In this document: positions 33,824-50,627 of the stretch, in pieces
How positions within the stretch are numbered: position 1 is the first letter of the stretch
Layout: every line of letters begins with the position of its first letter
NCBI GenBank assembly: GCA_000827205.1
Contig: KN832565.1
Span: 436,000-499,999, forward strand
Source of the DNA: Plicaturopsis crispa FD-325 SS-3
Lineage: Eukaryota > Basidiomycota > Agaricomycetes > Amylocorticiales > Amylocorticiaceae
Direction of reading: 5' to 3'
DNA: 64,000 nt
Notes under the pieces: model-generated
Databases searched by the model: none
What the model saw: only the letters and a program-made list of their open reading frames with translations
What the model was told of the DNA's origin: nothing
Program-made: the position numbers and the translations under genes

Positions 33824-33939
33824 GCCCGGCTAGCTCAATCGGATAGAGCGTCAGACTCTTAACTGAGTACGGGTTCTCGGTCTCCTCGACTGATACACTT
33901 GCCATCTGAAGGCTGCGAGTTCGACCCTCGCGTTGGGCT
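33824..33939 (+). tRNA. tRNA-Lys(CUU) with a 42-nt intron
   Basis: Acceptor stem GCCCGGC (33824-33830) pairs with GTTGGGC (33932-33938), with T as discriminator as in yeast tRNA-Lys(CUU). The D arm is TAGCTCAATCGGATAGAGCG; the anticodon stem is TCAGA/TCTGA around the loop CTCTTAA with anticodon CTT. The T arm is GCGAG-TTCGACC-CTCGC. The intron (33862-33903) sits after position 37, the canonical site for nuclear tRNA introns. Mature length is 74 nt. Confidence 0.95.
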
Positions 33940-40488: not shown

Positions 40489-42082
<1,594 letters not shown>

Positions 42083-43081: not shown

Positions 43082-43108
43082 CGTTTCCCTGGATCTTCCT
43101 GGACTCCT

Positions 43109-43373
43109 TACCACTCTGGCCTTTTGGCTTAGATCAAGTGTAGTATCTGTTCTTAATAGGTATGCGTTTTAAGCCAAGAGGCGGGCGTTCGAGCCCGTTT
43201 GAAGGAGTTCTTTGCTGACCGCCGTTTTCTTTGTTTTTGCAGTTTAACCACTATTATGGAGGCACCGCCTCCATTCTTGGTTATCTTATTTTTGCCGCCC
43301 TTGCTCCTTGTCCTCTGCTTGCACGACGAGGACGTGATGACCTTGCCGCTGCACTACTGGCTTGTGTCGTCGG
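43109..43373 (+). ncRNA. U2 spliceosomal RNA gene with an mRNA-type intron
   Basis: The 5' exon carries the near-invariant U2 5' half: GGCCTTTTGGCTTAGATCAA then GTGTAGTATCTGTTCTTA, including the branch-site-pairing GTAGTA. After AATAG at 43159 the U2 sequence breaks off at GTATGC and resumes at 43243 with TTTAA. Joining 43159 to 43243 restores CAG/TAG-TTTAA and stem-loop IIa (TAATAG 43154-43159 with CTATTA 43251-43256). Stem IIb follows (GGAGGC 43258-43263 with GCCTCC 43267-43272), then the Sm site ATTTTTG (43288-43294) and a stem III-like hairpin (GTCCTC/GAGGAC). A loop resembling that of stem IV (GCTGCACTAC) follows. The spliced length is about 180 nt, near the 186 nt of fission yeast U2. 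Ends are approximate. Confidence 0.85.
43160..43242 (+). other. Spliceosomal intron inside the U2 gene
   Basis: 83 nt, beginning GTATGC and ending TTTTTGCAG, with branch site GCTGAC (A at 43218, 24 nt from the 3' end), like the protein-gene introns around it. It holds a small hairpin (CGGGC-GTTCGA-GCCCG near 43182-43197) that may shorten the donor-to-branch distance. Confidence 0.8.
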
Positions 43374-43995
43374 GGGATTCCCTTTCTTTTCTTTGCGGCG
43401 CCGCTTACTCTCATCAGTCGATGTGGAGCAGATGTGCCGCAAATGAAGTATGGGTGCTCCATGGGTAATGGCTTAGGACTTCTCTTCACTAGGTGGTTCA
43501 GTTACGGAGAGCATTTGGGTATTTTTCGGGGGCACGATGATTCTAAGTCGTGGGCGATACAAAATGGAAGCACATCTAAATATTTTTCTCGAGATCTTTT
43601 CTACTGCTATGCAAGGAGGATTGATGCGCGTACTCTATGTTGGCTTTACAATGTACACACTGTGGTGCACAAGAAATGGATCAGTTTTTGTCCAGGATTC
43701 TATGGAACAAATTGTCCTGCCGCGATGTCCCATTCCATACAAGAGTGAGCAGTTTGAAGAGCATGGTGGATATGTACATACCGTGAGCCATCCACGTTCA
43801 GCTCATTCAAGACCAAGCTAGCACGCGATAGCCATGCTCGGGGTGTCTGGGACAATTCAAAACCATTGTCATTGTATGGAGAGGTATGATGAGTACAGGA
43901 GCACGGCGTAGGCCAGGTATGAGATATGCCGAGAGATGGTCCAAGATGACAGTAAATGAATCAGAAATAAATGCACGCCCTTCGCACTGAGGAGT
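43374..43995. other. Spacer between U2 and the GCNA-like gene
   Basis: About 620 bases. Several plus-strand frames (for example 43537-43821) read as partly hydrophobic peptides, but none joins to a family I know. No RNA gene recognised. Confidence 0.4.
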
Positions 43996-46087: not shown

Positions 46088-46842
46088 GACCGAGGTACTT
46101 ATACCGCACCTATACGTCAAGTAAAATGCCTGAGGGCCGTACGTAAGTAAAAGCCCAGCAAGTCCCTTGTCTCCAACGAGCTATAATGTAGTCAAGCAAG
46201 CAGCTCAAGAGCAGAAAGCATGCGCAATCTCAGAAGGTGTTGACTGGAGGTGAACGGAGAAAGGACGCGCCACAGGAAATGAACCGCGTCTGTGAGTCTG
46301 ACTCTCACGTTACCGCGTTGACGGCGCCTCAAAACTCCAAAAAGTTGCACTAAGCAAAGACCATAGATTGGACGGGGAATAACTACAGAAGGACAGACAA
46401 TAGTGCTGCGGCGAGGATACTATTAGACAGACAACCGAGTTAGGGGATGGAATCAATGAAAATAAGCTGTACAAATGAGGTTTCAATAAGAAGTGTTCGG
46501 AAAGGGTGACATGAAAGCAAGAGAAAAGCGACAGAACGGATGTTAAATGTATGATGCCGGGGCGGAATACAATTGCATGGTGGTATGATAAGGGTGTGTC
46601 GGATGATGGGTGGGTGGTGGGAAACATATATAGAACAGATGAGGCCGAGTCAGGTCGAAAGACAGAGATTTAAGATAGGTTTATAGAGGTATCGAGTCGG
46701 CGCAGGAACCGGGGAAGTAATATGTCGGGTGTTCGAGGATTTCATAGAGTAGAAGAATATGAAGACAGCCATAGAGTCGAGGCAGAAAAGAGCGGCGGAC
46801 ATGAGAGCATGGTCTGCATGTTGTAGTAGGCGTTCGACGCGT
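46088..46842. other. 3' region of the Pumilio gene and promoter of the GCNA-like gene
   Basis: About 750 bases; likely the long 3' untranslated region expected for a Pumilio gene plus a short promoter. Nothing else seen. Confidence 0.4.
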
Positions 46843-49800
46843 TTACATGCTGTAGCCAGCGAAGGAGGACCTCTGATATGGGTCGTTGATGGAGGAGGCG
46901 GCGAGACCATTGGCGAAAGGACCGACGTTGGCGAAGCCGCCACCAATACCGTTGGAAAAGCCACCGCCCGGGGCGTGCGAATGCGACGGAGAAATGCCCT
47001 GGTTGTGGCTCGAATTGCCCTGCAGTACGTAGCCGTCGATGCTCTGTGGCTGCATGCCGTGCATACCACCGCCAAGATGGGCCTGGCCGAAGGCCTGCTG
47101 CACCGAAGGGAGGGCGTACAAGCCATTTTGAGCGCCGTAGACGTCCGCGAGAGGGTTCGACGAGTGGAGGCCCGCTTGAGGCAAGTGGCGAGCAGCGGAA
47201 GCATGTCCAAGACCAAGAGCTTGACCGCCGATGGCCATGTTGACGAGCGCCTGCTGGTTCTGGTAGCCTCCGCCTCCGTTACCGAAGTGGTCCATCTGCT
47301 CGCGCTGGAGCTTGTTCTGGATACGCTTGCCGTAGGGTGTGTTCCGGATAAGGGGCAGTACCGGGCGGATGCCCTCGACGAGCAGTGCTCGCTGACCAGG
47401 TTCCGCGTAATCCAGAGCCGTCTGTGAATGTGTTAAGAGGGGCATGGTGGACAAGACAGAGCTACATACCTGGACACAGTAGTTCCCATAGGAGTCCCGA
47501 AGAAGCTTCTCGAGGCGAGTGCGGTTCAACAGCTCCTCAATGAGCATTTTGCGCGTGCTGTGCTCAGCGACTCGGATACACTGGAAATAATATATGAGCA
47601 ATGGAGATACAATCACGATAACAATAAAACCAACCTTTTCGATGACGTTAGAGCTAAACTTCTGTACAGACAGAGCGCAGACGTTGCCAGTGAACTGACG
47701 AATGACAGCGTCGCTGAAACGGTTGTCGTTCAAGTCCAAGATGTATTGGACCACCTATAGAACAGTCAGGTCCTGCCTTTAGCACGGTTAACAGTGACAC
47801 CCACGTAGTTGCCGTAAGGATCCTGCACCAAGGTCAGCGCATTGTAAGTGATCTCGTTTACGAGCTGAATGCGCTGATGGTCCGACGCATGGTCGATGCA
47901 GCGCTGCAATACGCAGCACCCGTGGCGATGGGTAGCCACTTCTACGCAGTTCGCAGCCACAGCATTGTAAATGAACTGTAGGCACAAAATAAGTCAGCAA
48001 GGCAAACACGAAATTACGCTATACTTACCTGGTTGTCTTCAGGCGCCAACTTGTTCAAGCACTTCTGAATGACATGATTGCCGTTCAAGTCCTTGATCAG
48101 CACGACAACATGCAGGCTGAGCGCGACAATGATAGAATGGATCTGAGCGTTGTATCTAAGATCAGCCTGCGGTCACTCCCGTAAGTGTGGAAGGGTGCGA
48201 TGATGCAGGAACAAGACTCGCCTGCCTCCGGGTCGACAGGAAGTCGATCATCTTCTGAACCGCGCGTGTGCCGTGCATGTTCAGGGAGATGTTGACGAGG
48301 TCCTGGGCGACGGACTCGCAAATGACATTGCGCTGCTCGTCGGTCGAGTACTCCAGCAATTTCTGGCACAAATAGTTGCCGAAGGGATCTATTTCGAAGG
48401 CGATTAGATAGCAGTCGCACAAGCGGAATCGGCGAGACGTACCGGTCATGAGGTCCGCCAAATGACCAAACGTTTCGCGGAAAATCATGTCCCGATGCTC
48501 AGGAATACCCTCCTCCAGCTTCTTCTGCAGGTAGCGACAACCATGCTGGTCCTTGCACAAGGCCGGGATCTCGCCCTGGAGGTCCTCAAGACGAGTGCCA
48601 GCGAAGCGGTTGACTAAAGATATGCAATGAGTCAATCTCCACGCAACGTAACTCAAAACGTTGGGCTCACATTCGCGATCAATGTCACCCCGCTTATGCT
48701 TGGGACCGTGCAACCCGTTCATTTTGCCGTCGGCGCTGCTGGGAACACGTCCCGGAATGCCCAGTCCGTATCTAGTGCCGTTGTGGTGATAAAGCGCCGT
48801 AGAACCACTAGTGCTCATTAGAATGACGGCAGACATCACAAAGAAAGGGAACTCCCGTACCGGTTGCTATCGATACCTCCGTTAAGGCCGTACACAGAAT
48901 CGCCGTACTGTTGCTAGTATGCGCATCAGTACCTATGCTATCATGTAGACAAAGTGACTGACCTGCAGAGAGTCGTCCATTCCGGCCTGGATAGAGCTGA
49001 ACGTGAGTCCATTGTCGTACTGGCCAGAGGGCAGTCTCGAGAGCGATGCCTGGAGGTCGCTGGCGTTGACCGCGCTGTCTCCCATCTGCGAAGCGAGACG
49101 TCCACTCAGTCCCTGAGCATCGGGGGTACGGGGAGTGCCCGTGCCCGGGGTACCGATGTAGTGCGAAGCGGTGCTGTTGCCAAGCCCTAGGGGGGTTGCT
49201 GGCACGGAACGGGTCAAGCCCTCCAAAGTGTTCGGAGGAGAGCTGCGACGCGACGACGGGAGGATGCTCGGGTGGAGTCCCTGCGGGTGTTGCTGCACGT
49301 GGGGTGATCCGGAGGCGGAGACGGTGGCAGCCATCTTGGTGCTGGCGAGGTCCCCAAGGGCGGACGAGAGCGTAAGAGTCGGGTTGGTGACTGTGCGTCG
49401 GTCCGCACGAAGACTGTCAGCGCCACGGGGGGCACCAGAGAACTGCGGCCACTCGGAAGACTTGTCGCGGGAGTCCCCCGTGCGTCCTGAGAAAGAGCTA
49501 CGGGGCGACGTCTGCGAGAGGTGGGCCAAATCAAGAGCAGCCGACGCGGCAGACATCTGCACAAAGGACTCATTAGACATGACATTGGGAGGGAAGCCGA
49601 TGCGACCCACCTTGCTGGAGTAGCCATTATGGTATTTGTCGTCATCAGACGTGGGGAGGTTGCGCATGGCATCTAACAATGGTTCAACGACGACATGACA
49701 ATCTAAACCAATGCAACTCACTGTGCATCTCCTTGTCCAATTGCTCGTCAAACATCATCACCGCATTGTAGGAGTTGTTCCCGTAATGCACACCGTCGTC

Positions 49801-50627
49801 ATCCCCATACCTTCCACCGCGTTGAAGAATGGACTGTGGGGCCCCTACAGGTGCGGGGGAGGCCCTGCTCGAAAGCTCTCCAGCCAGTTTGAGACCCTGC
49901 AGATGACCAGCGAGTTCTTCGTCTTGGCTGCTAGCGGACGTGCGGCGACTGGCAGGCATGCTCTTGGCACCGGCAGCACGCGAAAAGTTGGAGTTCCCGT
50001 TCCCGTTGGTGCTAAGCTCGGGTGAGTGACCGACGGACGGGGCGTACGTGACCGATTTCCGCTTGTCAGAGACGGCAGAGCCAACTGCCCTCGACAGGAC
50101 CTCGGCATCCACGGACGAGTGGGAGAGGCTGGAGCGAAGCCCGGACCCGCCATCACCGTTAAGGGAGGCGTTTACGCGGGGAGGAGTGGTGGGAGCCGAG
50201 GCAGCAAGGTGCTGCATCCCGGACGCCCCGTTGGGGGCATTAGGATCGTACGGGAGGGTGAGCAGCTCTTGTTGCTGCTGCTGCTCGAGCGCGCGCATCT
50301 GGTCCTCGAACATTTTGCGCTGAAGGGCTCGTTGGCGCTCGTGTTCTATGCGTTTGAGCTCGACGCGCTATGAGAAGAAATGATGTCAGAACTTGAACTG
50401 CACTCCCTGACTGCACGCAGCCCGGACGCGTCCGTCGTGTCCGACCCCAAATGAGCGTTCCACGCAGGGTACAAGACAGGCGGGACCAGACCCGAACTGC
50501 GCCACGAGGGTATGAAAAACGTGCTCACCGAGTCTGCAAGGTCCAGGAACGCGGGGGGACTCTGCTTCCTCTCGTCCGAGTGTCTATTATCGGTGGGTGA
50601 AATATGGTTTTCCAACATGGTATTCAT
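46843..50627 (-). CDS. Pumilio/PUF family RNA-binding protein
   Basis: PUF proteins bind UGUA-type sites in mRNA 3' ends and control decay, localisation or translation. Start MNTMLENHISPTDNRHSDER, an exon joined in frame to RVELKRIEHERQRALQRKM and a poly-Gln run. A long Ser/Pro/Gly-rich region follows, then eight PUF repeats spread over many exons. Landmarks: LCKDQHGCRYLQKKLEE (1), DPFGNYLCQKLLEYST (2), NMHGTRAVQKMIDFL (3), DLNGNHVIQKCLNKL (4), HRHGCCVLQRCIDHA (5), DPYGNYVVQYILDL (6), QKFSSNVIEKCIRVAE (7), DSYGNYCVQTALDYA (8). The repeat order and base-reading residues match the Puf3/PUM1 type. A Gly/His-rich tail ends SSFAGYSM. Very secure family call. Confidence 0.95.

Follow-up and report, generated by a model that had tools for sequence, protein, structure and literature searches.

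A U2 snRNA gene with a putative mRNA-type intron in loop IIa and a complementarity between the intron and stem-loop I

The U2 gene and its genomic surroundings

In the 64-kb stretch of DNA investigated in this study (hereafter the window), a U2 snRNA gene was detected at positions 43108-43379 of the forward strand, where the Rfam U2 model (RF00004, gathering score 46 bits) matches over its full extent (model positions 1-192 of 192) with 92.3 bits and an E-value of 1.6e-18. We observed that the score over the full model, the branch-recognition sequence and the Sm site are all present, as belongs to a member of RF00004. This is the sole snRNA in the window at Rfam gathering thresholds, and the scan of the whole window at the same thresholds returned one U2 and one tRNA and nothing else. 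The alignment to the model is interrupted at a single place, where 90 nt stand against seven model positions of loop IIa. The features of the gene and of its insert are collected in Table 1, in which GTAGTA is listed under its usual role in U2, branch recognition. The alignment preserves stems III and IV, with four positions flagged as parts of non-standard pairs, and the remainder of the gene outside the insert looks intact. With the GT-AG limits, exons of 52 and 137 nt would be joined into a spliced U2 RNA of 189 nt.

Table 1. Coordinates of the U2 gene, the predicted intron and associated motifs in the window.
Feature	Position	Strand	Basis
TATA box candidate TATAAAA	43075-43081	+	sequence; first base 33 nt before the start of the U2 match
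U2 exon 1 (52 nt), containing stem-loop I, the branch-recognition sequence and the stem IIa 5' arm	43108-43159	+	RF00004 match, exon length
Part of stem-loop I able to pair with intron 43168-43182	43119-43133	+	inverted-repeat search, pairing
Branch-recognition sequence GTAGTA (presumed role)	43140-43145	+	position from sequence comparison
Stem IIa 5' arm TAATAG	43154-43159	+	sequence; adjoins the partner loop only once the insert is excised
Inferred mRNA-type intron, 83 nt, GT-AG	43160-43242	+	RF00004 insertion, splice signals, comparison with Pumilio introns
Intron stretch complementary to stem-loop I	43168-43182	+	inverted-repeat search, folding, shuffles
B-box-like CGTTCGAGCCC	43186-43196	+	resembles a Pol III B box; probably chance
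Candidate branch site GCTGAC, its A 24 nt before the end of the intron	43214-43219	+	sequence
U2 exon 2 (137 nt), containing the remainder of IIa, IIb, the Sm site and stems III and IV	43243-43379	+	RF00004 match
Stem IIa 3' arm CTATTA	43251-43256	+	sequence
Sm-type site ATTTTTG	43288-43294	+	sequence; aligned to the model's AUUUUU

An earlier, sequence-only reading of this DNA had proposed a U2 gene broken by an mRNA-type insert, and this proposal is borne out by the match to RF00004, the insertion in loop IIa and the splice signals presented below. The TATA box and the Sm site that it named were both located (Table 1), and the spliced length, which it had put near 180 nt, has to be corrected to 189 nt by the GT-AG limits. 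The motif TATAAAA was observed five times in the 64-kb window against 3.0 expected occurrences, so that taken alone it says little about a promoter; transcription of the U2 gene is probably by Pol II.

As far as the neighbouring genes are concerned, Pfam matches near the U2 gene comprised P450, peroxidase, SprT-like and PUF, each of the five submitted stretches giving a match. The stretch at 41161-41550 belongs to a peroxidase gene (47.3 bits with Pfam peroxidase), probably of the lignin-degrading type, and this gene, together with the short introns, would fit a lignin-degrading basidiomycete. On the minus strand, a Pumilio-family gene with PUF repeats extends over 46841-50367 and harbors at least 10 introns, including one at 48143-48221 with a GC-AG donor. 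The tRNA gene lies at 33824-33939 (Rfam, 48.8 bits) and was missed by the ARAGORN scan; by eye, it resembles a tRNA-Lys(CUU) whose anticodon is followed by an intron, and a T5 run lies behind the gene.

The insert in loop IIa and the stem rebuilt by its excision

The insert is situated in the loop of stem IIa, between Rfam consensus positions 52 and 53, and begins 14 nt past the branch-recognition sequence. It starts with the donor GTATGC and ends with TTTTTGCAG; between -20 and -4, 14 of the 17 positions are pyrimidines, and the 3' end is CAG. The GT-AG ends, the branch site and the pyrimidine tract of a U2-type intron were all found in the insert, and the 83-nt length, the donor, the branch A 24 nt from the end and the terminal sequence agree with what had been claimed from the letters. 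The insert thus resembles an ordinary mRNA-type (U2-type) spliceosomal intron, whose splicing is predicted. A survey of fungal U3 introns cites RCTRAY as the fungal branch motif, at 6-36 nt from the acceptor, uses GTRWGT for the donor, and gives U3 introns a mean length of 92 nt (PMC5832005). The insert, with its branch motif and branch distance, fits these values, and its donor differs from the consensus of the survey at the final base.

For local comparison, 10 introns were reconstructed from the neighbouring Pumilio-family gene, the exons of which, once joined, read through 990 codons to a single terminal stop. These introns measure 48-79 nt, nine of them being GT-AG and one GC-AG, and a branch-like [CT]T[AGC]A[CT] motif was present in 9 of the 10 within the range searched. 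The insert in the U2 gene, with its 83 nt, exceeds every one of them in length.

Other U2 sequences were sought with a 23-base U2 pattern, which gave no match in the viral contigs and four stretches (L001-L004) on three contigs in the GTDB genomes. In all four, U2 is uninterrupted at the insert site, with L001 being whole and L002-L004 being cut by a contig or locus end. L001 and L003 also harbor U1, and L001 harbors 5S rRNA and histone 3' elements; though filed as bacterial in GTDB, the four stretches are probably eukaryotic contamination, and they served as intronless controls only. When the two assemblies from which L001 and L003 come were searched for U2, only those same places were found; no U2 was found in 14 control genomes, and no fungal relative turned up in the two collections scanned (viral contigs and GTDB genomes). 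An 18-base pattern was also tried, and the eight viral stretches that it gave were rejected as chance matches, with no Rfam match at gathering thresholds and with surroundings unlike those of U2.

Once the exons are joined, the two arms of stem IIa form six standard pairs, and a comparison with the intronless U2 of L003 (TATCAG/CTGATA) shows both arms changed at two of these pairs. The rebuilding of six perfect pairs that the sequence-only reading had described is therefore upheld, and the covariation that it had drawn from a contrast with human U2 is supported at two pairs against L003, through which alone that contrast was checked. A nucleotide profile made from the three intronless U2 sequences of L001-L003 scored 41.5 bits against the spliced form and 30.6 bits against the form that keeps the insert, matching the first part only (profile positions 1-66 when spliced, 1-40 when intact). 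Primary-sequence identity was tried as a guide to the junction and did not single out the GT-AG excision: among the top eight placements of an 83-nt excision, two slides score 39 in consensus identity, and the GT-AG one scores 38, tied with others. The limits 43160-43242 are thus chosen by the GT-AG ends and the perfect stem IIa, not by identity. In the ViennaRNA prediction for the spliced RNA, stem IIa has a probability of at most 0.02, and a pairing of 43245-43250 with 43278-43283 is favoured. A comparable alternative pairing of loop IIa occurs in yeast U2.

Predicted splicing, the antisense segment and other readings of the locus

We consider it very probable, as judged from the sequence, that this is a working U2 gene, the primary transcript of which contains one ordinary U2-type intron (43160-43242) and is spliced. 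The existing spliceosome, mature U2 included, would excise the intron and leave a U2 RNA of about 189 nt. What can be read in the DNA is a U2 gene, an insert, its splice signals and a stem IIa that is restored and compensated, and we infer that this copy is transcribed, spliced and supplies functional U2. The points that count against this explanation are the last base of GTATGC, the length beyond that of the Pumilio introns, the low ViennaRNA probability of stem IIa, the non-unique junction and a buried donor, which emerged from the folding of the precursor.

This folding involves a complementarity between the intron and stem-loop I, which is a new observation here. The inverted-repeat search disclosed a 13-nt pair at 92% between the two, and in RNA the segments 43119-43133 and 43168-43182 can form an unbroken helix of 15 pairs, including two G-U pairs. 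When the precursor is folded, the pairs of this helix reach ensemble probabilities of 0.84-1.0, and the core of stem-loop I, which consists of three pairs, falls to a probability of 0.0, against 0.99-1.0 in the spliced RNA. The six donor bases of the predicted precursor are unpaired with probabilities of at most 0.09, so that the 5' splice site is buried, which would hinder splicing if this fold forms. The bases of the branch-recognition sequence are unpaired in the same prediction with probabilities of 0.43-0.60 for the first four, and of 0.11 and 0.03 for the last two.

As an addition to the explanation preferred above, the 5' half of the intron could act as an antisense lock, with unspliced U2 inactive and spliced U2 active; 43168-43182 would pair with stem-loop I, and the region around the branch-recognition site would fold onto the 5' splice site. 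We regard this addition as possible but doubtful. Besides the precursor fold, it is favoured by the hairpin 43119-43182 (64 nt), which folds at -27.7 kcal/mol, where its shuffles average -12.0 kcal/mol and none of 200 is as good, though its limits were picked to fit. Moreover, a helix of at least 15 pairs with exon 1 is rare, appearing in 6 of 2000 and 9 of 6000 dinucleotide shuffles of the intron body, and in none of the 6345 overlapping 83-mers of the window or the 74 intron-like stretches; the ten Pumilio introns reach 6-12 pairs with the 52 nt that precede each of them (intron 8 taken 4 nt short). However, other measures are only mildly unusual, since the duplex energy with exon 1 was equalled or bettered by 34 of 2000 shuffles and by 298 of the 6345 window 83-mers, and the minimum free energy of exon 1 plus intron was matched by 45 of 1000 intron-body shuffles and by 2 of 200 in a second shuffle test. 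The folding energy of the intron by itself is unremarkable, being matched by 65 of 200 shuffles, the branch-recognition sequence is bound just in part, and stem-loop I comes close to being complementary to itself, a property that makes chance matches more likely. Because the complementarity was spotted after the fact, the lock is kept here as a hypothesis, and the 15-pair helix may either serve to lock unspliced U2 or be due to chance. A fuller version, according to which the intron would be an antisense switch that takes the place of stem-loop I, binds part of the branch-recognition region, masks its own 5' splice site and keeps U2 inactive till it is spliced by existing U2 snRNPs, making the gene both self-dependent and regulated, is in our estimation unlikely.

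Readings that do away with the splicing of a working gene were weighed as well. The copy at 43108-43379 could be a silent extra copy or a pseudogene, with another U2 gene supplying the cell, and a parallel exists in the U3 survey, which reports eight fungal genomes with both intron-bearing and intronless U3 copies (PMC5832005). Against this, no decay is visible in a gene that displays a full-length match, the functional sites, an Sm site, a TATA motif and a compensated stem IIa, and we hold the silent copy to be quite improbable. Some U2 RNAs are enlarged, such as that of budding yeast, and the insert sits in a loop, where it might be an unspliced expansion segment of loop IIa retained in mature U2; with GT-AG limits, a branch site and a pyrimidine tract all present, and with its retention predicted to abolish stem-loop I, there is very little to be said for this view.

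The last reading concerns the polymerase. In fission yeast U6, a B box inside the intron drives Pol III transcription, and within the intron of the present gene GTTCGAGCCC at 43187-43196 resembles a B box (Table 1 gives a slightly longer form); by eye, an A-box-like stretch can also be seen in conserved U2 sequence. An intronic B box driving Pol III transcription of this U2 gene is nonetheless hardly credible and was set aside, because the pattern GTTCGANNCY stands at chance frequency in the window (4 observed against 4.7 expected), and the T5 runs of the gene, one in the intron and one in the Sm site, would probably terminate such transcripts; the tRNA gene at 33824-33939 is itself followed by T5.

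Relation to known intron-bearing small RNA genes

An mRNA-type intron in the U2 gene of Rhodotorula hasegawae was reported, by its title, in Takahashi et al. 1993 (Mol Cell Biol 13:5613, cited in PMC2586383). The gene described here shares with it an mRNA-type intron inside a fungal U2 gene, predicted from the sequence in our case. The intron of R. hasegawae is reportedly 60 bp long and lies directly downstream of the branch-recognition domain. The two introns would thus differ in length, with 83 nt here against 60 bp there. R. hasegawae is a red yeast, whereas the present DNA is probably that of a wood-decay-type fungus.

Introns in the U6 genes of fission yeast and other fungi lie near catalytic nucleotides, and reverse splicing has been proposed for them (PMC10484740). 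These are likewise spliceosomal introns in a gene for a spliceosomal RNA, the difference being that another snRNA is concerned here, in loop IIa of U2; for a reverse-splicing origin of the present insert, its position would be the sole point in favour. The U3 survey (PMC5832005) states that 138 of 310 fungal U3 genes are interrupted, 'broadly distributed across the Basidiomycota', and that U3 and U6 are the sole small structured RNAs known as often interrupted in fungi. The fungal U3 introns are ordinary ones that interrupt a small structured RNA, for the most part in its 5' half, as in the U2 gene here, and unlike U2 they are free of self-dependence, since U3 stands outside the spliceosome. 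The class is therefore not new, because the R. hasegawae intron has been in print since 1993 and U3 and U6 are often interrupted, and the present U2 gene, on its predicted intron, is a further case of a rare known type, the intron-bearing U2 genes. Among the matches listed in our literature search, which covered few subscription papers and so does not imply absence, there was no paper on U2 introns of polypores or other mushrooms, and U2 introns are unmentioned in passages of PMC3488318, PMC4133162, PMC4654512 and PMC8283771.

An intron in a U2 gene signifies that the spliceosome must splice an essential RNA of its own. With a second case, seemingly distant from R. hasegawae, it can be asked whether U2 introns are old in the Basidiomycota or were gained more than once, and whether their sites concentrate around catalytic RNA, which is what reverse splicing would lead one to expect. 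Should the antisense helix prove to be conserved, it would represent an unfamiliar way of silencing an immature snRNA.
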